A program made the position numbers and the translations under genes. DNA of 64,000 bases from Paramacrobiotus metropolitanus. Taxonomy: Eukaryota; Tardigrada; Eutardigrada; Parachela; Macrobiotidae. The notes below the pieces were generated by a model, which made no database searches, was not told where the DNA came from, and saw only the letters and a program-made list of their open reading frames with translations. The stretch is taken from contig NW_026570279.1 of NCBI RefSeq assembly GCF_019649055.1, forward strand, positions 682,001 to 746,000, given 5' to 3'. Positions 33,938 to 64,000 of the stretch are shown here, piece after piece (the stretch's first letter is position 1; every line of letters begins with the position of its first letter).

Positions 33938-35166
33938 CAGTGCGCGGCACTTGATTAGCATTTTATTGCAATTAAGCTAAGTACATTTTTGATCCTGATA
34001 TGTTCGTATTGATAGCCATTAGCTTTCATTACACACAGAATACGCGATTTCCACGATTTGAGTGCGTTTCGAATTTTAACAGCTTGTGATCTCGCGCGTC
34101 ACAGCACTTCAAAATTCGCTTAAAAATCGAGTTGACCGCGTAGTCCATCGGCGCAGCATCTGGTGAATTCGCTAACCATTCTTCTTTCGGAATGTACTTC
34201 ACTTTTTCATCTTTCAGCCACTGGACAAATCTTTGGCCACATGGGAGGGGGCACTGTCCATGTGCAGGACCACTTTCTTGGCGTCCGATCCGTAAAGTCA
34301 GGGAACGTCTTTCCTGATTATTGGCTTCGGAACTTGGTCGATGAATACTTTGTGATCAACTTTCGTATCGGGAGGAACAACGTACATCGCAGTCTGTCCG
34401 CGCCAGGAGATGCCCATTGCCAGCATCACTTTTTTGGGCCAGTTCTTGCGGGGTAGCTTTTGCCAACTTTCAGGAACGACAACATTTTTCCGTTTGTAGT
34501 AGTAGTCCGTCTGCCCGGATAAATCATCAGTAGTAATCCATATCTCATCATCGTAAGAAGAAATTTCAGTTTTCGTCGCGACAAGTACCTTACAAACGTC
34601 TTGGCGCTCTGGGCCCGTTGTACAGCCTGGGTCGCCGATAGCGCGTGGACCTTCTTCTTTTTCAGCAGCTTCGCGTCCAAATTCTTGGCCAAAATTCGTC
34701 TCACAGATCTATCAGAGATCCGTAAACGTCTCCCAATCTCCCGAATAGAAGGAGGATTCGGAGAATCAATCAATTTGGACACTTTCCGGACGTTCTTCTG
34801 GATGCACACTGTAGGCTCGTTCTGCGGTGGCAAATTTTTCGTCTCTGGAGGGCTCCCGCTTAGTAGAGCTTGATTTTTCTTAACGATCCTTTCAACCGTG
34901 CTCTTACTGAGTGGTTTCTGGAGCTCAGATAATTTTTCTACAATTTTCCGAATAGATAACCCACTTGCATGTAGGGAAATCACTACAGCCTTACGTTCAA
35001 AATCAACTTGTCGAGGCATTTCTAAACATTTCAACGTTAACTACATTTCAATAAACTCAGAATAAAATTCTGTACAACTACACAAGTGAGCAAAACAGCC
35101 CAGACTACAGGGAAATTAGCAGACGCGTTTCGTTTGCACTGTCTTCAACTTGGCTGCCGCGCACTG
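33938..35166 (-). mobile_element. Tc1/mariner-superfamily element with perfect 12-bp ends
   Basis: The ends CAGTGCGCGGCA (33938-33949) and TGCCGCGCACTG (35155-35166) are perfect inverted repeats. Each is directly flanked by TA (33936-33937 and 35167-35168), the standard target duplication of this superfamily. The 1229-bp length is typical. Both ends and the transposase remnant are present, so the insertion is complete, though the gene is not. The terminal inverted repeats are very short, as in mariner rather than many Tc1 relatives. Confidence 0.9.
34163..35019 (-). pseudogene. Mariner-type transposase, frame-broken
   Basis: ATG at 35019 (MPRQVDFERKAVVISLHASG). The first 150 codons hold two helix-turn-helix regions (about residues 8-45, LSIRKIVEKL; about 85-115, SIREIGRRLRISDRSVRRI) for end binding. 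The catalytic half follows in other frames: YDDEIW near 34555, HMDSAPSHVA near 34260, and NSPDAAPMDY near 34165, giving an Asp-Asp-Asp triad as in mariner-like enzymes. The spacing of the last two Asp is about 33-37, not exact because of a frame change. Breaks seen: a frame change near 34565, an in-frame TGA near 34307 and a frame change near 34240. Non-functional as it stands. Confidence 0.85.
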
Positions 35167-35929: not shown

Positions 35930-37961
35930 CAGTAACCTTTTAATGTGCAAGCGTACGCATTTTTGCTTAGCCTACAGCACTGCCACTTATTACAAACGTT
36001 TTGCACAAATTCATTAATCATGTAATGTCGTCGACCTCAGTTGCGCCCTTGGCGAACGCTGCGAATATGGGGAAACGAGGCTGGCATATGTATTAGTGCT
36101 AGTATTGTTTGTCACGTACTTACTTGTACTACTTTATCAATAATGTGATGGCGGTCATGGCAGACTCCAGGAATGTTGTACATCGTAAACGGCTTATACT
36201 ACGTACGCAAAATATTACTGTATCGCATCAGTCTTTGTCCAACCGCAGTTTCAATATTCGCATGTGTTCGCCAGATTCGCCAAGTTCATGTTCAGGTTAA
36301 AGTGTATCCAGAATATCTTAACATTATTACAGCTTGGAAAGTACCCTTAATAAAACAAGAATTGAATTAGCAGTACGAGGTAGTGTTACTGATGTTTTGC
36401 ATAAGGGAAGGGGACTTTGTTACAAACTTTCTGTTCCGAACAAGCCGAAACCTCACAACAGATTAAATAAACTTAATTAATGTTTTTATTTTGAATTTTT
36501 ACAGGCGGGTGGTCGGAATTTAGATTAAGTATTCAGCCCGTTTCCATTAAATATTTTGCAGTTTACAATTTGCGTGCTTTCTACAACCTACACCAGATTC
36601 AGTATGACTCGCCAACGGTTTTTTTAAAGGCCAGTCTAGGTAAGCATACCCATCAGCATACCCGGTCTCATTTTCCCATATTCGCAGCATTCGCAGCGGT
36701 CGCCAAGGGTACTTTAAAGATCAGCCTAAGAGAAGCATAAGCAACCGCATACCGGGTCTGATTTCCCATATTCGCAGCATTCGCAGTGCTCGCTAATGTT
36801 ACTTTAAAGGTCAGTTTAAGTGATACCCAACGGGATACCGGGTTTGATTTTCCCATATTCGCAGCATTCGCAGCGGTCGCCAAGGGTACTTTAAAGATCA
36901 GCCTAAGAGAAGCATAAGCAACCGCATACCGGGTCTGATTTCCCATATTCGCAGCATTCGCAGTGTTCGCTAATGTTACTTTAAAGGTCAGTTTAAGTGA
37001 TACCCAACGGGATACCGGGTCTTATTTTCCCATATTTGGCAGTGTTCGCCAGTGGTGCTTTAAAAGTCAGCCTAAGTGAGAGTTTTCCATATTGGTTTTA
37101 GAGTATGGTACATCAATGATACTGCCTTTATTGCTCATTCAATATTTAATAATTTTATCATATTTAAATTTACGAAAAAAAATTGCAATACAGTACTGTA
37201 ATGTTATCGTATCCTGGATACGTTGTAATCTTAACATGAACTTGGCGAATCTGGCGAATATGCGCGAAAGACTGAAACTGCAGGTGGGGCACTAACTGAT
37301 GCGAATAACGTACGTACTTACTACGACCACTAAGTAAGTACTGCTAGAAATTATACCTTAAGAGCGTAATACAGAAATGCAAATAAAAAAGCAATCAGCA
37401 ATTATTTTAAAAATAATCTAAGTGGAATACTGCAGAAGAAATCGAAGAAAATATAAAATTTAATGAACCTACAAACTATATTCTTAGCCTACATCTAACC
37501 AGTAAACCCCATTGTATGTGTGCTAAGAGAAGTACACGAACAACAGCCCGCGGTGGTCCCAGGAACGAGTTATTAGTAAAGTAATAACAGTTAGTAATTA
37601 TTAACAATTAATTCATTTGTACGACCAAATCGTATGAAAAACCTGGGGGGTTGGGTTTGCCATGAGCGTCAGTGCAATAATGTGTCCAGCAGACGGCAGC
37701 ACAGATATATAATATTGGAACTAATTATATCCCACCTCGCTTCCCTATATTCGCAGCGTTCGCAGTGTTCGCCAGGGGCACAAAAGGGGTCAACTGCTTT
37801 GCATCCCTTATTCATAATAAGTAATGTTATATAATATATAAATTATAATATTATTTGCTTCGGCTAATTATCAGAGCAGTCCACCCGTTTTCTGGCCTAA
37901 AGTTAAACGTGGCCGCGTTATGCTACGCAAAAATGCGTACGCTTGAACATAAGGGTTACTG
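35930..37961. mobile_element. 2.03-kb nested foldback element
   Basis: Three pairs of arms nest inside each other. Outermost: 35930-35975 against 37915-37961, sharing 'aagcgtacgcatttttgc'. Next: 36034-36080 against 37735-37785, sharing 'ttcgcagcgttcgc'. Innermost: about 36190-36335 against 37192-37340, sharing 'catgaacttggcgaatctgg'. The loop holds a tandem repeat. No open frame supports a transposase. It looks like a non-autonomous foldback element that grew by internal tandem duplication. Confidence 0.7.
36663..37035. repeat. Tandem repeat with alternating 90- and 87-bp units
   Basis: 'cccatattcgcagcattcgc' begins units at 36675, 36765, 36852 and 36942, with a diverged start at 37029. The spacing is 90, 87, 90, 87. 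Unit types alternate: one has 'ggtcgccaagggtacttt', the other 'ctcgctaatgttacttt', so the true period is a 177-bp dimer. Unit lengths are multiples of three, so the minus strand happens to be open. Confidence 0.9.
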
Positions 37962-39156: not shown

Positions 39157-41417
39157 TCAAGGTTCCTCACACACAAAGCCGTCACCAAACCGTCTAGTCA
39201 GCCGCCAGCTTGGACTGAAGCCCGGATGGTAATGCCTAAGTTGAGTATTCATCCATCTTGAAAACGCGAAACTTAACTGAAAAGCGTCCAGTTGCTCCCC
39301 TTGAGAGAAGGCAGCGTTTGTGCGTATCCTTACGGAAGTCGTTACATGGATAATGATTGGATTCCTTCGGTTGACAAGCGCGCCGGGTGCCAAATATATT
39401 AGTTCGATGTGCTCGATGCAGCTAATATCTGCATTCTCGCTGAGGACATAAGATTGTTCCATGACTTTCAGGAACAGGCAGATTTCTTTGCATTTGCTAT
39501 CAACGTCTTTCTTAGAGGCTTTGTTATAATCAATAATTGTCATGTCCGCAAAATGAATAACAGCCCTTCCATTTTCACCGATGCCGATATGGACAATGTC
39601 AAATCCAGGATGATTTTCTTTTATTGGTATTAAGTAATAGTCTCCAGCCCCATTCTTCCCGTTCTGGCGTATAGCGCATCTGAGTTGCTGGAAAACATTT
39701 CTGTATCTGTTTTGTGCCTGAAGTAAATTTTCACGGCTGAAGTAGATATCGTCTTTGGGAGTATTGCCTTCGTCTTGGGGAGTATTGTCTTTGTTTTGGG
39801 GAATATTGCCTTGCTGTTGTTTTTCATCACTGATCGAATAAGGTTTTTCTTGTTTCGGCCATCGCAAGTCGCTTGTACCCAAGTGGCATTGGTACTGCGC
39901 TTGGCCTTCCACTGTTTTAGAAAATTTCTGTCTATCAAGATGAAATTTTTTTTTGAGTTCGAAGTCAAGCGCCTGTACGTCGCCATAAAGGATTTTCAAA
40001 TCAAAGGTTCGATCAGCAGACCCGATCACGATCCTATATACGTACTGTTCCCAGTGCCACCAGAGTGTCGGTGACGTTGCATATACATGCCTCCCCATTC
40101 GGTTGATTTCCGTTAAAGTAAGCGCCAACCTCAATTCCTGTCTGACGTACTCCGACACGTGTTCCATTTGAATGTCAGCACGACGAGAAGAATCACGGGG
40201 TAGATCTCTATCCGGTTTACCGTAGCAAGCATATAACCGATCGAAAAGGTGTAGCCGCTCATCTGCCGTAACATTTTCATCCCGTTCTGTTGCCGCAATC
40301 GATTGTCGATCGTTTAATTCACTCAATGCGCTTAAGAGTTCCGAAAGCACTTTTGTATGACTCAAAAAAGCCGCTCGTGCTGAATATCCTGTGGAGTAGA
40401 ACTGCTCTTCCAGTTTGTCTTTGACTCTGGTAAGCTTGTTTCCGTAGTCCGAGTCACGAAGGGCTGGCATCACGGTATTCAAATCTTCGGGTTCATATTC
40501 CCCTTTAAGTATTCTGCCATGAACTTGAGAAAGAAATGGTTTATATTCCAGAGCTCGTAATACCTCTTCTTTGGTCCACGACAAATAAAAAAATATTTCC
40601 AGTTCGTCGCTTTGATTTTCCAGTAAACTGTTAAAATTCGAAGAAACGTATATAACGCGCCGATTTGCTAAATCATCTTTTCGCCATGTTTTGCACAACA
40701 AGAACAATTTCCCTAGTTCCGCCATATGTCCTTGAGAGTCGCCACCAATATTCAGTTCACCCTTGTGTCGGATTCCGTCCACAAAAAGCAGTATACGTTG
40801 CGGATAACTTTGATTACTCGCCAGACATTCTTCCTTGTTCAAAAGTTTCTCGAATGAATCACTTTTAAAATCGAACATTTTAACGTTCCACGCACGATAA
40901 TCTGATTCGCCCGAATGCCACAGAATTACGCATCTTGCATCTGTCTCAGATTTTTGGAGCCTGATCCAAACAATGGTTATATCATCTTTGCTTCTGAAGA
41001 TGTCAAGAGCTGATGCGTAACACGCGAGTGTTTTGCCCGAGCCAGGTGAGCCGCACACCAGAAGTGATGACTCTTCACTGGGGTTATTTAATTTTCGTTC
41101 AATAGCTCGGTGTAATCTCTGCATTTCGTGTCGCTTCACAAAGATATACCTCCACTTTTGCTTTGGATGGACCACCTGCTCTCCGAGCTCACCTGTTTTG
41201 ACAAGAGCTAAGGGAAACTGGCCATAACGAAAAGCTGTTGCAGCCTCCTTCTCATTGCGCGGGTCCGGAATATAGCGGAATGCTTCCTTGCATTTCAGAT
41301 GAATGTGCTCTTTGGCCATTTGATTGTGAATAAACGGTAAAACAGTTGGTTTTGTCTCCAAATCACTGAATGCGAGTTGATACGTTGGGGTACCCGGGAT
41401 TCTTCGGCGTTCTTCGT
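39157..41417 (-). CDS. P-loop NTPase with C-terminal nuclease-like region (Crinkler/RHS type), last exon
   Basis: The longest non-repetitive open frame in the window: 752 codons from a splice acceptor (ttttgcag, exon from 41417, phase 1) to TGA at 39157. The first exon lies upstream and was not found; there is no ATG in frame before the acceptor, so the protein is N-terminally incomplete here. Numbering from the Leu codon at 41361: Walker A GSPGSGKT at 104-111, Walker B ILLFVDG at 190-196, and an Asn-Pro-Gln-Asp-rich spacer at 518-537 with short repeats (NTPQDEGNTPKD). A C-terminal region has GFDIVHI (587-593) and VIHFADMTI (601-609), placed like the active-site strands of PD-(D/E)XK-type nuclease domains in this family. 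Known relatives are oomycete and fungal Crinklers and trypanosome RHS proteins, plus animal homologues of unclear role. Family assignment is by motif order, not by search. The gene looks intact. Confidence 0.75.
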
Positions 41418-48839: not shown

Positions 48840-49020
48840 GTATTCACAGTTTCGGTATTTACACCATGGTAATACCTCGAACATATGTAAAATTTTTAAA
48901 TTCTTTAAGGAGTTTGCATTTTCGGTATTTGCACCAAGGCAATACTTCGAGCACATGCAGAACCTATTTTATTTTAGAAATTCGCAGTCTCGGTATTTGC
49001 ATCAAGCAGTGACTCGAGTG
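48840..49020. repeat. Three diverged copies of a ~70-bp unit next to the minisatellite
   Basis: 'cggtattt(a/g)ca' begins units at 48853, 48923 and 48991 (periods 70 and 68). Each is followed by 'cca(t/a)gg(t/c)aata' and 'tcgagcaca'-like strings; the third is the most diverged. No obvious relation to the 42-bp unit that follows. Confidence 0.7.
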
Positions 49021-49024
49021 TGAC

Positions 49025-49056
49025 CGGCAAAAATGTCCCCCCGGACATTTTTGCCG
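49025..49056. repeat. Perfect 14-bp-arm hairpin resembling the minisatellite unit
   Basis: CGGCAAAAATGTCC, four C, then GGACATTTTTGCCG. The right arm differs at one base from GGACATTATTGCCG, the 3' part of the 42-bp unit. It lies 170 bp before the first recognisable unit. Confidence 0.85.
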
Positions 49057-49227
49057 TGTCCCCCCTGCCACCATCTCCAAAACCGTAACCTTTTGGCCAG
49101 AATGTTACATGGGGGACCTAGAACGGAAAGCACATTTTCAGGTCAATCGGTGTCCTTTGCAAAGCTGCCACCAGGGTTACCACAGCGTTACCAGTCTAAA
49201 ACAACTGAGGGACACTGGTTACCGTAC

Positions 49228-52200
49228 GGATATTATTGCCATAACAAACTTCTAGGTCTCCGGCATGGGAAACATTATTGCCGGAATGAAATTACTGGTG
49301 TCCGGCATGGGGGACATTAATGCCGGATTGAAATTACTGGTGTCCGGCATTGTGGACATTATGGCCGGAATGAAATTATTAGTGTCCGGCATGGGGGACA
49401 TTATTTCCGGAATGAAATTACTGGTGTTCGGCATGGGGGACATCATTGCCTAAAAAAATTACTGGTGTCGGGCATGGGGGACATTATTGCCGGAATGCAA
49501 TTATTGGTGTCCGGCATGGGGGACATTATTGCCGGAATGAAATTGTTAGTATCCGGCATGGGGGACATTATTGCCGGAATAAAATTACTGGCTTCCGTTT
49601 GGGGGACATTATTGCCGGAATGAGATTACTGGTGTCCGGCATGGGAGACACTATTGCCGGAATGAAATTATTGGTGCCCGGCATGGGGGACATTATTGCC
49701 GGAATGAAATTACTGGTGTCCGGCATGGGGAATATTATTGCCGGAATGAAATTACTGGTGTCCGGCATTGGGGACATTATTGCCGGAATGAAATTACTGG
49801 TGTCCGGCATTAGGGACATTATGGCCGGAATGAAATTATTAGTGTCCGGCATGGGGGACATTATGGCCGGAATGAAATTATTAGTGTCCGGCAAGGCGGA
49901 CATTATTGCCGGAATGAAATTATTGGCGTCCGGCATGGGGGACATTATTGCCGGAATGAAATTATTGGTGTCCGGCATGGGGGACATTATTGCCGGAATG
50001 AAATTATTAGTGTCCGGCATGGGGGACATTATTGCCGGAATGAAGTTGCTGGTGTCCGGCATCGGTGACATTGTTGCCAGAATGAAATACTGATGTCCGG
50101 CATTAGTGACATTATTGCCGGAATGCAATTATTGGTGTCTGGCATGGGGGACCTTATTGCCGGAATGAAATTACTGGTGCCCGGCATGGGGGACATTATT
50201 TGCCGGAATGAAATTACTGGTGTCCGTCATGGGGGACATTATTGCCGGAATGAAATTACTGGTGTCCGGCATGGGGGACATTATTGCCGGATTGAAATTA
50301 CTGGTGTCCGGCATTGGGGACATTATGGCCGGTATGAAATAACTGGTGCCCGCAATGGGGACATTATTGCCGGAATGCAGATATTGGTGTCCGGCATGGG
50401 GGACATTATTGCCGGAATGAAATTACTGGGGTCCTGCATGGGGGACACTATTGCCGGAATAAAATTACAGGTGTCCGGCATGGGGGACATTATTGCCGGA
50501 ATGAAATTACTGGTGCCTGTCATTGGGGACATTATTGCCGGAATGAAATTACTGATGTCCGGCATGGGGGACATTATTGCTGGATTGAAATTACTGGCTT
50601 TCGTTTGGGGGACATTATTGCCGGAATGAAATTACTGGTGTCCGGCATGGGAAACATTATTGCTGGAATGAAATTATTGGTGTCCGGCATGGGGGACATT
50701 ATTGCCGGAATGAGATTATTGGTGCCTGGCATGGGGGACATTATTGATGGGGGACACTATTGCCAGAAGGAAATTGTTAGTGTCCGGCATGGGGGACATT
50801 AATGCCGGAATGCAATTATTGGTGTCCGGCATGGGGGACATTATTGCCGGAATGAAATTACTGGGGTCCTGCATGGGGGACACTATTGCCGGAATGAAAG
50901 TACTGGTGTCCGGCATGGGGGACATTATTGCCGGAATGAAATTACTGGTGTCCGGCATTGGGGACATTATTGCCGAAATGAAATTACTGACGTCCGGCAT
51001 GGGGGACATTATTGCCGGATTGAAATTATTAGTGTCCGGCATGGGGGACATTATGGCCGGAACGAAATTATTAGTGTCCGGCAAGGGGGACATTACTGCC
51101 GGAATGAAATTATTGGTGTCCGGCATGAGGGACATTATTGCCGGAATGAAATTATTGGTGTCCGGCATGGGGGACATTATTGCCGGAATGAAATTATTAG
51201 TGTCCGGCATGGGGGACATTATTGCCGGAATGAAGTTGCTGGTGTCCGGCATCGGTGACATTGTTGCCAGAATGAAATACTGATTTCCGGCATTAGTGAC
51301 ATTATTGCCGGAATGCAATTATTGGTGTCCGGCATGGGGGACCTTATTGCCGGAATGAAATTACTGGTGCCCAGCATGGGGGACATTATTTGCCGGAATG
51401 AAATTACTGGTGTCCGTCATGGGGGACATTATTGCCGGAATGAAATTACTGGTGTCCGGCATGGGGGACATTATTGCCGGATTAAAATTATTAGTGTCCG
51501 GCATGGGGGACATTATGGCCGGAACGAAATTATTAGTGTCCGGCAAGGGGGACATTACTGCCGGAATGAAATTATTGGTGTCCGGCATGGGGGACATTAT
51601 TGCCGGAATGAAATTATTGGTGTCCGGCATGGGGGACATTATTGCCGGAATGAAATTATTAGTGTCCGGCATTGGGGACATTATTGCCGAAATGAAATTA
51701 CTGACGTCCGGCATGGGGGACATTATTGCCGGATTGAAATTATTAGTGTCCGGCATGGGGGACATTATGGCCGGAACGAAATTATTAGTGTCCGGCAAGG
51801 GGGACATTACTGCCGGAATGAAATTATTGGTGTCCGGCATGGGGGACATTATTGCCGGAATGAAATTATTGGTGTCCGGCATGGGGGACATTATTGCCGG
51901 AATGAAATTATTAGTGTCCGGCATGGGGGACATTATTGCCGGAATGAAGTTGCTGGTGTCCGGCATCGGTGACATTGTTGCCAGAATGAAATACTGATGT
52001 CCGGCATTAGTGACATTATTGCCGGAATGCAATTATTGGTGTCCGGCATGGGGGACCTTATTGCCGGAATGAAATTACTGGTGCCCGGCATGGGGGACAT
52101 TATTTGCCGGAATGAAATTACTGGTGTCCGGCATGGGGGACATTATTGCCGGAATGAAATTACTGGTGTCCGGCATGGGGGACATTATTGCCGGATTGAA

Positions 52201-55200
52201 ATTACTGGTGTCCGGCATTGGGGACATTATGGCCGGAATGAAATTACTGGTGCCCGGCATTGGGGACATTATTGCCGGAATGCAGATATTGGTGTCCGGC
52301 ATGGGGGACATTATTGCCGGAATGAAATTACTGGGGTCCTGCATGGGGGACACTATTGCCGGAATAAAATTACAGGTGTCCGGCATGGGGGACATTATTG
52401 CCGGAATGAAATTACTGGTGCCTGTCATTGGGGACATTATTGCCGGAATGAAATTACTGATGTCCGGCATGGGGGACATTATTGCTGGATTGAAATTACT
52501 GGCTTTCGTTTGGGGGACATTATTGCCGGAATGAAATTACTGGTGTCCGGCATGGGAAACATTATTGCTGGAATGAAATTATTGGTGTCCGGCATGGGGG
52601 ACATTATTGCCGGAATGAGATTATTGGTGCCTGGCATGGGGGACATTATTGATGGGGGACACTATTGCCAGAAGGAAATTGTTAGTGTCCGGCATGGGGG
52701 ACATTAATGCCGGAATGCAATTATTGGTGTCCGGCATGGAGGACATTATTGCCGGAATGAAATTACTGGTGTCCGGCATTGGGGACATTATTGCCGAAAT
52801 GAAATTACTGACGTCCGGCATGGGGGACATTATTGCCGGATTGAAATTATTAGTGTCCGGCATGGGGGACATTATGGCCGGAACGAAATTATTAGTGTCC
52901 GGCAGGGGGACATTATTGCCGGAATGAAATTATTGGTGTCCGGCATGGGGACATTATTGCCGGAATGAAATTATTGGTGTCCGGCATGGGGGACATTATT
53001 GCCGGAATGAAATTATTAGTGTCCGGCATGGGGGACATTATTGCCGGAATGAAGTTGCTGGTGTCCGGCATCGGTGACATTGTTGCCAGAATGAAATACT
53101 GATTTCCGGCATTAGTGACATTATTGCCGGAATGCAATTATTGGTGTCCGGCATGGGGGACATTATTGCCGGAATGAAATTACTGGTGCCCGGCATGGGG
53201 ACATTATTGCCGGAATGAAATTACTGGTGTCCGGCATGGGGGACATTATTGCCGGAATGAAATTACTGGTGTCCGGCATGGGGGACATTATTGCCGGATT
53301 GAAATTATTAGTGTCCGGCATGGGGGACATTATTGCCGGAACGAAATTATTAGTGTCCGGCATGGGGGACATTATTGCCGGAATGAAATTATTGGTGTCC
53401 GGCATGGGGGACATTATTGCCGGAATGAAATTATTGGTGTCCGGCATGGGGGACATTATTGCCGGAATGAAATTATTAGTGTCCGGCATTGGGGACATTA
53501 TTGCCGAAATGAAATTACTGACGTCCGGCATGGGGGACATTATTGCCGGATTGAAATTATTAGTGTCCGGCATGGGGGACATTATTGCCGGAACGAAATT
53601 ATTAGTGTCCGGCATGGGGACATTATTGCCGGAATGAAATTATTGGTGTCCGGCATGGGGACATTATTGCCGGAATGAAATTATTGGTGTCCGGCATGGG
53701 GGACATTATTGCCGGAATGAAATTATTAGTGTCCGGCATGGGGACATTATTGCCGGAATGAAGTTGCTGGTGTCCGGCATCGGTGACATTATTGCCAGAA
53801 TGAAATACTGATGTCCGGCATAGGACATTATTGCCGGAATGAAATTATTGGTGTCCGGCATGGGGGACATTATTGCCGGAATGAAATTACTGGTGTCCGG
53901 CATGGGGGACATTATTGCCGGAATGAAATTACTGGTGTCCGGCATGGGGGACATTATTGCCGGAATGAAATTACTGGTGTCCGGCATGGGGACATTATTG
54001 CCGGAATGAAATTACTGGTGTCCGGCATGGGGACATTATTGCCGGAATGAAATTACTGGTGTCCGGCATGGGGGACATTATTGCCGGAATGCAGATATTG
54101 GTGTCCGGCATGGGGGACATTATTGCCGGAATGAAATTACTGGTGTTCGGCATGGGGGACATCATTGCCTAAAAAAATTACTGGTGTCGGGCATGGGGGA
54201 CATTATTGCCGGAATGCAATTATTGGTGTCCGGCATGGGGGACATTATTGCCGGAATGAAATTGTTAGTATCCGGCATGGGGGACATTATTGCCGGAATG
54301 AAATACTGATATCCGGCATGGGGGACATTATTGCCGGAATGAAATTACTGGCTTCCGTTTGGGGGACATTATTGCCGGAATGAGATTACTGGTGTCCGGC
54401 ATGGGAGACATTATTGCCGGAATGAAATTATTGGTGTCCGGCATGGGGACATTATTGCCGGAATGAAATTACTGGTGTCCGGCATGGGGACATTATTGCC
54501 GGAATGAAATTACTGGTGTCCGGCATGGGGACATTATTGCCGGAATGAAATTACTGGTGTCCGGCATAGGACATTATGGCCGGACTGAAATTATTAGTGT
54601 CCGGCGTGGGGGACATTATTGCCGGAATGAAATTATTGGTGTCCGGCAAGGGGGACATTATTGCCGGAATGAAATTATTGGTGTCCGGCATGGGGGACAT
54701 TATTGCCGGAATGAAATTATTGGTGTCCGGCATGGGGGACATTATTGCCGGAATGAAATTATTGGTGTCCGGCATGGGGACATTATTGCCGGAATGAAAT
54801 TGCTGGTGTCCGGCATCGGTGACATTATTGCCGGAATGAAATACTGATGTCCGGCATTAGTGACATTATTGCCGGAATGCAATTATTGGTGTCCGGCATG
54901 GGGGACATTATTGCCGGAATGAAATTACTGGTGTCCGGCATGGGGGACATTATTGCCGGAATGAAATTACTGGTGTCCGGCATGGGGGACATTATTGCCG
55001 GAATGAAATTACTGGTGTCCGGCATGGGGACATTATTGCCGGAATGAAATTACTGGTGTCCGGCATGAGGACATTATGGCCGGTATGAAATAACTGGTGC
55101 CCGCATTGGGGACATTATTGCCGGAATGCAGATATTGGTGTCCGGCATGGGGGACATTATTGCCGGAATGAAATTACTGGTGTCCGGCATGGGGGACATT

Positions 55201-58200
55201 ATTGCCGGAATAAAATTACAGGTGTCCGGCATGGGGACATTATTGCCGGAATGAAATTACTGGTGCCTGTCATGGGGGACATTATTGCCGGAATGAAATT
55301 ACTGGTGTCCGGCATGGGGGACATTATTGCCGGATTGAAATTACTGGCTTTCGTTTGGGGACATTATTGCCGGAATGAAATTACTGGTGTCCGGCATGGG
55401 GGACATTATTGCCGGAATGAAATTATTGGTGTCCGGCATGGGGGACATTATTGCCGGAATGAGATTATTGGTGCCTGGCATGGGGACATTATTGATGGGG
55501 ACATATTGCCGGAACGAAATTGTTAGTGTCCGGCATGGGGGACATTATTGCCGGAATGCAATTATTGGTGTCCGGCATGGGGACATTATTGCCGGAATGA
55601 AATTACTGGTGTCCTGCATGGGGACATTATTGCCGGAGTGAAAGTACTGGTGTCCGGCATGGGGGACATTATTGCCGGAATGAAATTACTGGTGTCCGGC
55701 ATGGGGGACATTATTGCCGGAATGAAATTACTGACGTCCGGCATGGGGGACATTATTGCCGGATTGAAATTATTAGTGTCCGGCATGGGGGACATTATGG
55801 CCGGAACGAAATTATTAGTTTCCGGCAAGGGGAACATTATTGCCAGAATGCAGTTATTGGTGTCTGGCATGGGAGACATTATTGCCGGAATGAAATAACT
55901 GGTGTCCGGCATGGGGGACATTATTGCCGGAATGAAATTATTAGTGTCCGGCATGGGGGACATTATTGCCGGAATGAAATTACTGACGTCCGGCATTGGG
56001 GACATTATTGCCGGATTGAAATTACTGGCTTTCGTTTGGGGGACATTATTGCCGGAATGAAATTACTGGTGTCCGGCATGGGGGACATTATTGCCGGAAT
56101 GAAATTATTGGTGTCCGGCATGGGGGACATTATTGCCGGAATGAAATTATTGGTGTCCGGCATGGGGGACATTATTGCCGGATTGAAATTATTAGTGTCC
56201 GGCATGGGGGACATTATTGCCGGAATGAAATTATTGGTGTCCGGCATGGGGACATTATTGCCGGAATGAAATTACTGGTGTCCGGCATGGGGGACATTAT
56301 TGCCGGAATGAAATTATTGGTGTCCGGCATGGGGACATTATTGCCGGAATGAAATTATTGGTGTCCGGCATGGGGACATTACTGCCGGAATGAAATTATT
56401 GGTGTCCGGCATGGGGACATTATTGCCGGAATGAAATTATTGGTGTCCGGCATGGGGACATTATTGCCGGAATGAAATTACTGGTGTCCGGCATGGGGGA
56501 CATTATTGCCGGAATGAAATTATTGGTGTCCGGCATGGGGGACATTATTGCCGGAATGAAATTACTGGTGTCCGGCATGGGGACATTATTGCCGGAACGA
56601 AATTACTGGTGTCCGACATGGGGACATTATTGCCGGAACGAATTTACTGGTGTCCGACATGGGGGACATTATTGCCGGAATGCAATTATTGGTGTCCGGC
56701 ATGGGGACATTATTGCCGGAACGAAATTACTGGTGTCCGGCATGGGGAACATTATTGCCGGAATGAAATTATTGGTGTCCGGCATGGGGACATTATTGCC
56801 GGAATGAAATTATCAGTGTCCGGCATGGGGGACATTATTGCCGGAACGAATTTACTGGTGTCCGACATGGGGGACATTATTGCCGGAACGAATTTACTGG
56901 TGTCCGACATGGGGGACATTATTGCCGGAGCGAATTTAATGGTGTCGGACATGGGGGACATTATTGCCGGAACGAATTTACTGGTGTCCGACATGGGGGA
57001 CATTATTGCCGGAACGAAATTAACTGGTGTCCGACATGGGGGACATTATTGCCGGAATGAAATTATTAGTGTCCGGCATGGGGGACATTATTGCCGGAAT
57101 GAAATTACTGACGTCCGGCATTGGGGACATTATTGCCGGATTGAAATTACTGGCGTCCGGCATGGGGACATTATTGCCGGAATGAAATTACTGGTGTCCG
57201 GCATGGGGACATTATTGCCGGAATGAAATTATTGGTGTCCGGCATGGGGACATTATTGCCGGAACGAAATTATGGTGTCCGGCATGGGGGACATTATTGC
57301 CGGAATGAAATTACTGGTGTCCGGCATGGGGACATTATTGCCGGAATGAAATAACAGGTGTGCGGCATGGAGGACATTATTGCCGTAATGAAATTACTGG
57401 TGTCCGGCATGGGGGACATTATTGCCGGAATAAAATTATTGGTGTCCGGCATGGGGGACATTATTGCCGGAATGAAATAACTGGTGTGCGGCATGGAGGA
57501 CATTATTGCCGGAATGAAATTACTGGTGTCCGGCGTGGGGGACATAATTGCCGGAATGCAATTATTGGTGTCCGGCATGGGGGACATTATTGCCGGAACG
57601 AAATTACTGGTGTCCGGCATGGGGGACATTATTGCCGGAATGCAATTACTGGTGTCCGGCATAGGGGACATTATTGCCGGAATGAATTTAGTGGTGTCCG
57701 GCATGGGGGACATTATTGCCGGAATGAAATTACTGGTGTCCGGCATGGGGGACATTATTGCCGGAATGTGAATTATTGGTGTCCGGCATGGGGAACATTA
57801 TTGCCGGAATGCAATTATTGGTGTCCGGCATGGGGGACATTATTGCCGGAATGAAATTACTGGTGTCCGGCATGGGGGACATTATTGCCGGAATGAAATT
57901 ACTGGTGTCCGGCATGGGGACATTATTGCCGGAATGAAATTACTGGTGTCCGGCATGGGGGACATTATTGCCGGAATGAAATTACTGGTGTCCGGCATGG
58001 GGGACATTATTGCCGGAACGAAATTACTGGTGTCCGGCATGGGGGACATTATTGCCGGAATGCAATTATTGGTGTCCGGCATGGGGGACATTATTGCCGG
58101 AATGAAATTACTGGTGTCCGGCATGGGGGACATTATTGCCGGAATGCAATAATTGGTGTCCGGCATAGGACATTATTGCCGGAATGAATTTACTGGTGTC

Positions 58201-61200
58201 CGGCATGGGGACATTATTGCCGGAATGAAATTAACTTGTGTCCGGCATGGGGGACATTATTGCCGGAATAAAATAACTATTGTGCGGCATGGAGGACATT
58301 ATTGCCGGAATGAAATAACTGGTGTCCGGCATGGGGGACATTATTGCCGGAATGAAATTATTGGTGTCCGGCATGAGGGACTTTATTGCCGGAATAAAAT
58401 AACTATTGTGCGGCATGGAGGACATTATTGCCGGATTGAAATTACTGGCTTTCGTTTGGGGGACATTATTGCCGGAATGAAATTACTGGTGTCCGGCATG
58501 GGGGACATTATTGCCGGAATGAAATTACTGGTGTCCGGCATGGGGGACATTATTGCCGGAATGAAATTATTGGTGTCCGGCATGGGGGACATTATTGCCG
58601 GAATGAAATTATTAGTGTCCGGCATGGGGGACATTATTGCCGGAATGCAATTATTGGTGTCCGGCATGGGGGACATTATTGCCGGAATGAAATTACTGGT
58701 GTCCGGCATGGGGGACATTATTGCCGGAATGCAATTATTGGTGTCCGGCATGGGGGACATTATTGCCGGAATGCAATTATTGGTGTCCGGCATGGGGGAC
58801 ATTATTGCCGGAATGAAATTATTGGTGTCCGGCATGGGGGACATTATTGCCGGAATGAAATTATTGGTGTCCGGCATGGGGGACATTATTGCCGGAATGA
58901 AATTACTGGTGTCCGGCATGGGGACATTATTGCCGGAATGAAATTATTGGTGTCCGGCATGGGGGACATTATTGCCGGAATGCAGTTATTGGTGTCCGGC
59001 ATGGGGGACATTATTGCCGGAATGAAATTACTGGTGTCCGGCATGAGGGACATTATTGCCGGAATGAATTTACTGGTGTCTGGCATGGGAGACATTATTG
59101 CCGGAATGCAATTATTGGTGTCCGGCATGGGGGACATTATTGCCGGAACGAAATTACTGGTGTCCGGCATGGGGGACATTATTGCCGGAATGAAATTACT
59201 GGTGTCCGGCATGGGGGACATTATTGCCGGAATGAAATTATCAGGTGTCCGGCATGGGGGACATTATTGCCGGAATGAAATTACTGGTGTCCGGCATGGG
59301 GGACATTATTGCCGGAATGAAATTACTGGTGTCCGGCATGGGGGACATTATTGCCGGAATGAAATTATTGGTGTCCGGCATGGGGGACATTATTGCCGGA
59401 ATGAATTTACTGGTGTCCGGCATGGGGGACATTATTGCCGGAATGAAATTACTGGTGTCCGGCATGGGGGACATTATTGCCGGAATGAAATTATTGGTGT
59501 CCGGCATGGGGGACATTATTGCCGGAATGAAATTGTTGGTGTCCGGCATGGGGGACATTATTGCCGGAATGAAATTACTGGTGTCCGGCATGAGGGACAT
59601 TATTGCCGGAATGAATTTACTGGTGTCTGGCATGGGAGACATTATTGCCGGAATGCAATTATTGGTGTCCGGCATGGGGGACATTATTGCCGGAACGAAA
59701 TTACTGGTGTCCGGCATGGGGGACATTATTGCCGGAATGAAATTACTGGTGTCCGGCATGAGGGACATTATTGCCGGAATGAAATTATCAGTGTCCGGCA
59801 GGGGGACATTATTGCCGAAATGAAATTACTGGTGTCCGGCATGGGGAACATTATTGCCGGAATGAAATTATTGGTGTGCGGCATGGGGGACATTATTGCC
59901 GGAATGAAATTATTGGTGTCCGGCATGGGGGACATTATTGCCGGAATGAATTTACTGGTGTCTGGCATGGGAGACATTATTGCCGGAATGAAATAACTGG
60001 TGTCCGGCATGGGGGACATTATTGCCGGAATGAAATTATTAGTGTCCGGCATGGGGGACATTATTGCCGGAATGAATTTAGTGGTGTCCGGCATGGGGAC
60101 ATTATTGCCGGAATGAAATTAACTGGTGTCCGGCATGGGGGACATTATTGCCGGAATAAAATAACTATTGTGCGGCATGGGGGACATTATTGCCGGAATG
60201 AAATTTAACTGGTGTCCGGCATGGGGGACATTATTGCCGGAATGAAATTATTGGTGTCCGGCATGGGGACATTATTGCCGGAATAAAATAACAATTGTGC
60301 GGCATGGGGGACATTATTGCCGGATTGAAATTACTGGCTTTCGGTTGGGGGACATTATTGCCGGAATGAAATTACTGGTGTCCGGCATGGGAAACATTAT
60401 TGTTGGAATGAAATTATTGGTGTCCGGCATGGGGGACATTATTGCCGGAATGAAATTATTAGTGTCCGGCATGGGGGACATTATTGCCGGATTGAAATTA
60501 TTAGTGTCCGGCATGGGAGACATTATTGCCAGAATGCAATTATTGGTGTCCGGCATGGGGGACATTATTGCCGGAATGAAATTACTGGTGTCCGGCATGG
60601 GGGACATTATTGCCGGAATGCAATTATTGGTGTCCGGCATGGGGGACATTATTGCCGGAATGAAATTATTGGTGTCCGGCATGGGGACATTATTGCCGGA
60701 ATGAAATTATTGGTGTCCGGCATGGGGGACATTATTGCCGGAATGCAATTATTGGTGTCCGGCATGGGGGACATTATTGCCGGAATGAAATTACTGGTGT
60801 CCGGCATGGGGGACATTATTGCCGGAATGAAATTACTGGTGTCCGGCATGGGGGACATTATTGCCGGAATGCATTTATTGGTGTCCGGCATGGGGGACAT
60901 TATTGCCGGAATGAAATTACTGGTGTCCGGCATGGGGGACATTATTGCCGGAACGAAATTAGTGGTGTCCGGCATGGGGACATTATTGCCGGAATGAAAT
61001 TACTGGTGTCCGGCATGGGGGACATTATTGCCGGAATGAAATTACTGGTGTCCGGCATGGGGGACATTATTGCCGGAATGAAATTACTGGTGTCCGGCAT
61101 GGGGGACATTATTGCCGGAATGAAATTATGGGTGTCCGGCATGGGGGACATTATTGCCGGAATGAAATTACTGGTGTCCGGCATGGGGGACATTATTGCC

Positions 61201-64000
61201 GGAATGAAATTATTGGTGTCCGGCATGGGGACATTATTGCCGGAATGCAATTATTGGTGTCCGGCATGGGGGACATTATTGCCGGAATGAATTTACTGGT
61301 GTCTGGCATGGGAGACATTATTGCCGGAATGAAATAACTGGTGTCCGGCATGGGGGACATTATTGCCGGAATGAAATTATTAGTGTCCGGCATGGGGGAC
61401 ATTATTGCCGGAATGAAATTACTGACGTCCGGCATTGGGGACATTATTGCCGGATTGAAATTACTGGCTTTCGTTTGGGGGACATTATTGCCGGAATGAA
61501 ATTACTGGTGTCCGGCATGGGAAACATTATTGCCGGAATGAAATTATTGGTGTCCGGCATGGGGGACATTATTGCCGGAATGAAATTAATGGTGTCCGGC
61601 ATGGGGGACATTATTGCCGGAATGAAATTACTGGTGTCCGGCATGGGGGACATTATTGCCGGAATGAAATAACAGGTGTGCGGCATGGGGGACATTATTG
61701 CCGGAATGAAATTACTGGTGTCCGGCATGGGGGACATTATTGCTGGAATAAAATTATTGGTGTCCGGCATGGGGACATTATTGCCGGAATGAAATTACTG
61801 GTGTCCGGCATGGGGGACATTATTGCCGGAATGAAATTACTGGTGTCCGGCATGGGGGACATTATTGCCGGAATGCAATTATTGGTGTCCGGCATGGGGG
61901 ACATTATTGCCGGAATAAAATAACTGGTGTGCGGCATGGAGGACATTATTGCCGGAATGCAATAATTGGTGTCCGGCATGGGGGACATTATTGCTGGAAT
62001 GAATTTACTGGTGTCTGGCATGGGAGACATTATTGCCGGAATGAAATGACTGGTGTCGGGCATGGGGGACATTATTGCCGGAATGTGAATTATTGGTGTC
62101 CGGCATGGGGAACATTATTGCCGGAATGAAATTATTGGTGTCCGGCATGGGGGACATTATTGCCGGAATGAAATTACTGGTGTCCGGCATGGGGGACATT
62201 ATTGCCGGAATGAAATAACTGGTGTCCGGCATGGGGGACATTATTGCCGGAATGAAATTACTGGTGTCCGGCATGGGGGACATTATTGCCGGAATGAAAT
62301 TATTGGTGTCCGGCATGGGGGACATTATTGCCGGAATAAAATAACTGGTGTGCGGCATGGAGGACATTATTGCCGGAATGCAATAATTGGTGTCCGGCAT
62401 AGGGGACATTATTGCCGGAATGAATTTACTGGTGTCTGGCATGGGAGACATTATTGCCGGAATGAAATAACTTGTGTCCGGCATGGGGGACATTATTGCC
62501 GGAATAAAATAACTATTGTGCGGCATGGAGGACATTATTGCCGGAATGAAATAACTGGTGTCCGGCATGGGGGACATTATTGCCGGAATGAAATTACTGG
62601 TGTCCGGCATGGGGGACATTATTGCCGGAATGAAATAACTGGTGTCCGGCATGGGGGACATTATTGCCGGAATGAAATAACTGGTGTCCGGCATGGGGGA
62701 CATTATTGTCGGAATGAAATAACAGGTGTGCGGCATGGAGGACATTATTGCCGGACTGAAATTACTGGCTTTCGTTTGGGGGACATTATTGCCGGAATGA
62801 AATTACTGGTGTCCGGCATGGGAAACATTATTGTTGGAATGAAATTATTGGTGTCCGACATGGGGGACATTATTGCCGGAATGAAATTAATGGTGTCCGG
62901 CATGGGGGACATTATTGCCGGAATGAAATTACTGGTGTCCGGCATGGGGGACATTATTGCCGGAATGAAATAACAGGTGTGCGGCATGGAGGACATTATT
63001 GCCGGAATGAAATTACTGGTGTCCGGCATTGGGGACATTATTGCCGGAATAAAATTATTAGTGTCCGGCATGGGGGACATTATTGCCGGAATGAAATAAC
63101 TGGTGTGCGGCATGGAGGACATTATTGCCGGAATGAAATTACTGGTGTCCGGCGTGGGGGACATAATTGCCGGAATGCAATTATTGGTGTCCGGCATGGG
63201 GGACATTATTGCCGGAATAAAATAACTGGTGTGCGGCATGGAGGACATTATTGCCAGAATGCAATAATTCGTGTCCGGCATAGGGGACATTATTGCTGGA
63301 ATGAATTTACTGGTGTCTGGCATGGGAGACATTATTGCCGGAATGAAATAACTGGTGTCGGGCATGGGGGACATTATTGCCGGAATGTGAATTATTGGTG
63401 TCCGGCATGGGGAACATTATTGCCGGAAGGCAATTATTGGTGTCCGGCATGGGGGACATCATTGTTGGAATGAAATGACTGGTGTCCGGCATGGGGGACA
63501 TTATTGCCGGAATGAAATAACTGGTGTGCGGCATGGAGGACATTATTGCCGGAATGAAATTACTGGTGTCCGGCGTGGGGGACATAATTGCCGGAATGCA
63601 ATTATTGGTGTCCGGTATGGGGGACATTATTGCCGGAATAAAATAACTGGTGTGCGGCATGGAGGACATTATTGCCGGAATGCAATAATTGGTGTCCGGC
63701 ATAGGGGACATTATTGCCGGAATGAATTTACTGGTGTCTGGCATGGGAGACATTATTGCCGGAATGAAATAACTTGTGTCCGGCATGGGGGACATTATTG
63801 CCGGAATAAAATAACTATTGTGCGGCATGGAGGACATTATTGCCGGAATGAAATAACTGGTGTCCGGCATGGGGGACATTATTGCCGGAATGAAATTATT
63901 GGTGTCCGGCATGGGGGACTTTATTGCCGGAATGAAATAACTGGTGTCCGGCATGGGGGACATTATTGCCGGAATGAAATAACTGGTGTCCGGCATGGGG
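49228..64000. repeat. Minisatellite array, 42-bp unit, about 350 copies, runs off the window
   Basis: The unit contains, in order, GGAATGAAATTACTGG, TGTCCGGCATGGGGG and ACATTATTGCC. The first, degenerate unit is at 49228-49269. The G-rich strand has 14 G and 7 C per unit. Since 42 is 3 x 14, long frames are open on both strands: MKLLVSGMGDIIAG and RNEITGVRHGGHYC on plus, MPDTNNFIPAIMSP on minus. They are shadows of the repeat and are broken wherever the G-run has four bases instead of five, or where a unit has ATGAAATAA. Variants cluster: 'gtccggcaagg' and 'catcggtgac' units in the first 6 kb, 'gtgcggcatggagg' and 'aataaaataac' units in the last 6.7 kb. No gene is supported inside. Confidence 0.97.
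50039..54835. repeat. Higher-order repeats within the 42-bp array
   Basis: A marker unit pair ('aagttgctggtgtccggcat' with 'cggtgacatt' after it) recurs at about 50039, 51229, 51942, 53048 and 53757, with a slightly changed copy at 54793. The steps alternate between about 1190/1106/1036 and 713/709 bp. A shortened unit ('ttattgatgggggacacta') recurs at 50741 and 52646 (1905 bp). A unique junction ('catcattgcctaaaaaaatt') recurs at 49441 and 54160 (4719 bp). The array has thus been copied in blocks as well as unit by unit. Confidence 0.8.

Follow-up and report, generated by a model that had tools for sequence, protein, structure and literature searches.

Described Systems

The Ginger1 transposons and the foldback-type transposons are the closest described systems to the locus reported here. 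The locus lies in a 64,000-nucleotide stretch of the tardigrade Paramacrobiotus metropolitanus (contig NW_026570279.1, here C59:682001-746000, hereafter the window), which ends in a 42-bp tandem array. Very probably, this array is a hugely expanded transposon arm: the left one of a non-autonomous DNA element of foldback type, in a family where other copies encode an integrase-type transposase resembling that of Ginger1. This confidence applies to the array as the arm of a transposon; the steps proposed for its origin have lower odds.

Ginger1 elements (PMC2836005) are 2.6-7 kb long, with TGTNR ends, terminal inverted repeats (TIRs) of 40-270 bp and a 4-bp target-site duplication of CCGG or CCGT. 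They encode a Gypsy-like integrase core (rve, DDE), an H2C2 zinc finger, a YPYY region and a GPY/F motif. At the C-terminus there is an OTU or Ulp1 domain, sometimes with PHD.

The foldback transposons in the cited papers carry P-type (PMC3573991) or Mutator-type (PMC3169594) enzymes. Galileo, like the family described here, has long, internally repetitive TIRs and some copies without matching duplications, and secondary transposase-binding sites have been proposed in its repeats (PMC3573991). It differs in its P-type transposase, its 7-bp duplication and its TIRs of up to ~1.26 kb. In Tm1, a Mutator/Foldback family of root-knot nematodes, the TIRs likewise consist of a short tandem repeat, mostly of 14 bp, in variable number, but Tm1 has a Mutator/Phantom-type transposase and a 9-bp duplication (PMC3169594). 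In the foldback element Tetris of Drosophila virilis, the TIRs contain tandem repeats of up to 66 copies of ~220 bp. As in the family described here, its inner TIR repeats share the sequence of the outer TIR, and they expand to kb-size, satellite-like arrays (PMC4079207). The size of an array is therefore not unprecedented as such. Tetris differs in its ~220-bp unit, and its transposase was not found in PMC4079207. In the open-licence literature, no foldback or repeat-armed Ginger transposon with the combination of features given below was found.

Structure of the Window Element

The window element starts at position 49019 and spans C59:731019-757374 (26,356 bp; window coordinates are continued into the contig beyond 64000). 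It lies between two copies of CTCGAG, the second of which lies just after the right end (C59:757374), 11.4 kb beyond the window end. From left to right it consists of a 209-bp outer TIR, the 16.4-kb array, five tandem blocks that extend to 753.2 kb, a core of ~3.9 kb and a right TIR of ~217 bp. The left arm is ~22 kb long overall. By structure, this is a foldback-type element. The features within the window are listed in Table 1.

Table 1. Features of the window, in window coordinates
Feature	Position	Strand	Description
Left target-site duplication copy	49013..49018	.	CTCGAG, 6 bp
Outer left terminal inverted repeat	49019..49227	+	Non-repetitive, begins TGTGACCGGCAAAAATGTCC
Array, left arm	49228..64000, on to C59:747630	+	42-bp tandem units, 391 overall

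The insertion point is the CTCGAG of the third of three degenerate host repeats of ~85 bp each (TCGGTATTT.CA.CA...), which were found by eye at window positions 48840-49018. A further exact family end lies at C59:789633-789652 on the minus strand, 32 kb past the right end of the element.

Distribution of the Family

A search of the 42-bp unit against the genome (169.8 Mb, 533 contigs), suggested as a check in the original prediction made for the window, gives at least 262 matching places. At many loci a plus-strand block is followed by a minus-strand block a few kb on. Thirteen elements with 30 array blocks were read through: the window element and 12 others chosen for this plus/minus pattern. 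In all 12 of the others, arrays lie in opposite orientation in both arms, inside the shared end TGTGACCGGC, and thus show the long, tandem-repeat TIRs, inverted between arms, of the foldback class. The arrays in these sister copies are 0.4-3.8 kb per arm, compared with 16.4 kb at the window.

Each arm continues beyond its array for ~200 bp of non-repetitive sequence with the same beginning as the outer left TIR of the window element (20 arms). For both C46 arms the outermost end comes from a separate read, and the right end of C1a lacks its outermost part. A family end in the right orientation is present outside the array at 22 of the 23 array loci that could be told apart among the matches listed, as cross-read by eye. 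The 20-letter end has 113 genome matches at two mismatches or fewer; the reversed control has 1. Among the matches listed, 59 of the 113 have the exact end TGTGACC..., and some listed copies have altered first letters (TATGACC, CGTGACC and others).

Target-site duplications were compared in the 26 end pairs that could be paired by eye within one contig; single ends, the close pair C148:30433/30466 and C1a were excluded. A 6-bp duplication is exact in 13 of the 26 pairs and has one mismatch in 4. A match with one mismatch or fewer is expected by chance at 0.0046 per end pair. The truncated C1a has TACGCA on both sides by eye. Of the 17 duplications, 15 have CG at the centre of one or both flanks, and all 17 have CG, TG or CA at the centre of both. 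In the four one-mismatch duplications (C44, C52, C178 and C381), the mismatch always falls on this central CG, which reads TG or CA instead. The window shows no depletion of CpG (observed/expected 1.12).

In the end pairs without a matching duplication, CG, TG or CA is central in 12 of 18 flanks, against a summed frequency of 0.19 in the window. These ends look as though each has its own insertion site. Chimeric copies as the cause of the missing duplications are unsupported, as the identity between left and right TIR ends is alike in both groups (mean 0.945 in the 17 matched pairs and 0.939 in the others). Duplications swapped between copies were looked for by eye, and none matched. In the copy at C10:169215-170907, the left and right flanks (12 bases) are reverse complements of one another, which suggests that this element may lie in a larger palindrome.

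Sequence and Composition of the Array

The original prediction described a 42-bp minisatellite of at least 14.7 kb, with about 350 units, that continues past the window. Tandem Repeats Finder and wrap-around alignment both recover the array. The former places it from 49228, with a trimer row of period 126 and score 23083 at 49255-64000. In the latter, the array comprises 391 units (16.4 kb), of which ~352 lie within the window (14,773/42, by division), and it runs on for a further 1.6 kb, to window position 65630. The length is exactly 42 nt in 311 of the 391 units, and identity to the consensus GGGGGACATTATTGCCGGAATGAAATTACTGGTGTCCGGCAT, of which GGACATTATTGCCGG is a portion, is 94.1%. There are 173 distinct unit sequences. 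The G:C ratio is 1.9-2.1:1 from 50 kb onward (GC skew 0.32-0.36), in agreement with the 2:1 bias noted before.

Unusual single-strand structure had been suggested from a TGTCC/GGACA inverted pair in each unit. Single-stranded DNA folds of array pieces (n=5 from 3 places, one of them on both strands) are moderately better than those of shuffled sequences (z -2.6 to -4.3). TGTCC/GGACA pairing is present in one of these folds; in most, TCCGGCA and TGCCGGA form the main stem. The terminal 72 nt of the left TIR can form a long hairpin that is strong relative to shuffles (z -8.05). A scan of the window with Rfam gives 0 matches at the gathering threshold.

The unit consensus is free of stop codons in three of six frames, two on the plus strand and one on the minus strand, and the longest array open reading frame (ORF) is 352 amino acids (58938-59996). 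Both observations match the earlier statement that the array is open in both strands with frames of about 350 codons, which were taken to be non-genic products of a unit divisible by three; this is still the best reading of them. That the array instead encodes a repeated 14-residue peptide such as MPDTSNFIPAIMSP is extremely improbable, even though these frames are open and one frame of the core continues without a stop into the array (667 amino acids open; 583 up to the cut of a shorter fetched sequence). Lengths that break the frame occur in 78 of the 391 units, frames are open on both strands, and the variability of the unit by position modulo 3 (0.053, 0.064 and 0.045) gives no clear codon pattern. 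The coding reading is rejected on the frame breaks and the missing codon pattern. The frame breaks are weaker evidence for one reason: 43 units are just one G short in the G run, a difference that assembly error could also explain.

Terminal Motif and Proposed Array Growth

The unit carries GGGGGACATTATTGCCGG, which agrees with the terminal motif, read in inverted orientation, at 17 of 18 letters; the best of 200 shuffled units agrees at 14. This part of the unit (positions 5-18) was compared with positions 19-42, omitting the G run at positions 1-4. In all 13 elements the motif part is the less variable of the two (pooled 0.022 vs 0.093, p 1e-4, 1305 units). Differences between the consensus sequences of the arms are concentrated at unit positions 19-30 (0.122, with flanking values of 0.010 and 0.016). 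Because the inverted motif coincides with the lowest variability, the array looks like a series of multiplied transposase-binding sites. The pattern fits the repeated binding sites proposed for Galileo (PMC3573991) and Tetris (PMC4079207).

Identical units recur at a lag of 45 units in 9.8% of cases and at lags of 31, 17 and 43 units in ~7%, where 3.2% is expected by chance. The array contains 19 exact repeat pairs of at least 150 nt, the longest of which is 479 nt with copies 1,905 bp apart. The excess at these lags and the 479-nt repeat are consistent with duplication of blocks by unequal exchange or slippage.

Such satellite-like block duplications, and a window array far longer than the arrays of the sister arms, would also be expected of a free-standing minisatellite or satellite that spread alone, with transposon ends next to it by chance or with the repeat picked up by a transposon. 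This explanation is nevertheless very improbable. The other 12 elements all have arrays in both arms within a common outer end, and the unit itself matches the end motif. A self-standing satellite is rejected because the arrays sit inside the family ends. The minisatellite reading is incomplete, as the array is an arm of a transposon with sharp ends, a target-site duplication and relatives elsewhere in the genome.

We consider it somewhat more likely than not that the motif is the transposase-binding site and that the arm grew by multiplying copies of it. Part of the element end would have been duplicated into the arm. Unequal exchange or replication slippage would then have multiplied the copies, first as single units and later as blocks of 17-45 units.

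Transposase-Coding Copies

Three copies of the family with exact duplications contain coding sequence: C419 (10.3 kb), C35 (12.2 kb) and C245 (8.9 kb). Profile scans covered 13 pieces of these copies. The integrase core (rve, PF00665) is above the cut-off in C35 (E 6.8e-8), just below it in C245 (E 1.2e-7) and below it in C419 (E 1.1e-4). The last E of the DDE triad was read by eye, in a different frame piece from the integrase core. The H, H and CxxC of a zinc finger follow the YP region in separate open pieces of C245 and C35 by eye, and no H2C2 zinc finger profile is matched in the coding copies. The motifs carry the names used in PMC2836005, and their placing on these pieces is tentative. 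Neither a reverse transcriptase nor a P-type transposase is matched in the 13 pieces. The first integrase piece of C245 lies ~0.8 kb away from the array.

A search of the Protein Data Bank with the integrase piece gives 8 matches, all of them integrases (best E 0.0074). The Ulp1-like piece has a single match (E 0.73), which was not used. Within the genome, the integrase core is matched at 80% in C135, which carries a family end as well. The next relatives are 57-64% identical and occur in four places (C58:172342, C1:3584563, C252:4028 and C284:30189), followed by others at 40-47%. The four are perhaps further Ginger-like families. The many remaining matches to the integrase core, which lie in long frames, are taken for Gypsy elements.

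The family resembles Ginger1 in its TGTNR 5' end, its integrase core with DDE and its Ulp1-like and PHD-like matches. The putative zinc finger after a YP region and, in one copy, GPF, all read by eye, may be further shared features. The target is centred on CG, as in the published CCGG and CCGT (PMC2836005). It differs in its 6-bp rather than 4-bp duplication (17 of 26 pairs). It also differs in its tandem-repeat arms, which are 0.7-4 kb in the other elements and ~22 kb at the window, compared with TIRs of 40-270 bp, and in the length of its coding copies (8.9-12.2 kb compared with 2.6-7 kb). As the 4-bp duplication and short TIRs are absent, and the zinc finger and GPY/F motif are putative, the family is called Ginger1-like and is not filed as a member of Ginger1.

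It is unlikely that the enzyme belongs instead to IS3EU/GingerRoot, Polinton or P/Galileo. IS3EU/GingerRoot and Polinton have published 6-bp duplications, and IS3EU/GingerRoot also has a related integrase-type core and occasional TG..CA ends (PMC10045372). Galileo has the long, repetitive TIRs described above. However, IS3EU/GingerRoot has mostly TA..TA ends and no HHCC (PMC10045372), whereas the TG...CA ends and H-H-C-C pieces of this family, the latter read by eye, agree with Ginger1, as do the Ulp1-like and PHD-like matches. The absence of a P-type transposase from the scanned pieces argues against P/Galileo.

The Five Blocks and the Core

In each of the five tandem blocks, a 478-bp segment corresponds to the right TIR with 261 bp of the right host flank, inverted. 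These segments are 97.1-98.3% identical to the right end and its flank, but identity between their TIR portion and the left TIR is only 85-87%. Because they are closer to the right TIR than to the left, the left arm contains the right end together with host DNA, in five tandem copies. Among themselves, the blocks differ by 1.5-7%.

This divergence, the 173 distinct units and the repeat pairs of up to 479 nt make it quite improbable that faulty assembly turned an ordinary arm of 1-4 kb into the long array with its five blocks. Assemblies can mis-size such arrays, and the differences in G-run length may partly be consensus error. The fetched sequence of the array locus contains no N.

The core (C59:753207-757120) contains a long, coiled-coil, proline-rich frame with weak coiled-coil profile matches only. 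We guess that this frame is gag-like. It has 114 matches across the genome, of which ~50 by our own count cover 90% or more of the query, and the core is therefore a piece of another high-copy repeated element.

The copy of the right end may have arisen by template switching between the inverted arms, followed by loss of the right array and replacement of the interior; we hold the odds of this sequence of events to be even. During repair, template switching would place the right end and its flank in the left arm. The right arm would afterwards lose its array, and the interior would be swapped for a piece of another high-copy repeat.

Several observations weigh against the account given here. 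The right arm of the window element has no 42-bp array, its units being confined to the left arm, and its core matches no transposase profile. One of the 23 array loci (C1:4135449) has only an oppositely oriented end, 1.4 kb off. Eight shorter copies, read whole or nearly so, have 14, 13, 9, 5, 4, 2, 0 and 0 probe matches; two thus have no unit, and the 2-5 matches in three others are possibly the end motif itself. Nine of the 26 end pairs have no matching duplication. Conservation of the motif reaches p<0.05 singly in only 6 of 13 elements. Ulp1 (PF02902; E 5.8e-4 in C245 and 9.7e-4 in C419) is matched just below the Pfam cut-off, and PHD_4 (E 1.4e-4 in C245) is also below its cut-off. GPF is present in C419 only, with GPL in C245 and GPS in C35 by eye. 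Binding, expansion and template switching are inferred, and the array length comes from one assembly.

Taken more broadly, the family could tentatively be read as an independent foldback origin: a Ginger1-like, integrase-driven transposon with arms made of arrays of its own inverted terminal binding site. Such an array might recruit the transposase, drive copying of one end and its host flank into the opposite arm and serve as a nursery for new satellites. If so, the occurrence of the foldback design together with an integrase-type enzyme would suggest that transposons have converged on multiplied transposase-binding sites. The idea is testable, since it predicts that the enzyme binds the 42-bp unit. 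The window locus also shows a transposon arm in the course of becoming a satellite, with some of the steps recorded by the inverted copies of the other end and its flank.

Other Features of the Window

A separate tandem repeat with a period of 90/177 bp is present at window positions 36642-37036. On the minus strand, a 734-amino-acid ORF (39157-41361) has weak P-loop NTPase matches, both below the cut-off (nSTAND_NTPase5, E 4.7e-5; GvpD_P-loop, E 3.2e-4). A second minus-strand ORF (34426-35034) matches a helix-turn-helix profile (PF13384, E 6e-6) and resembles what we take to be a fragment of a Tc1/mariner-type transposase.

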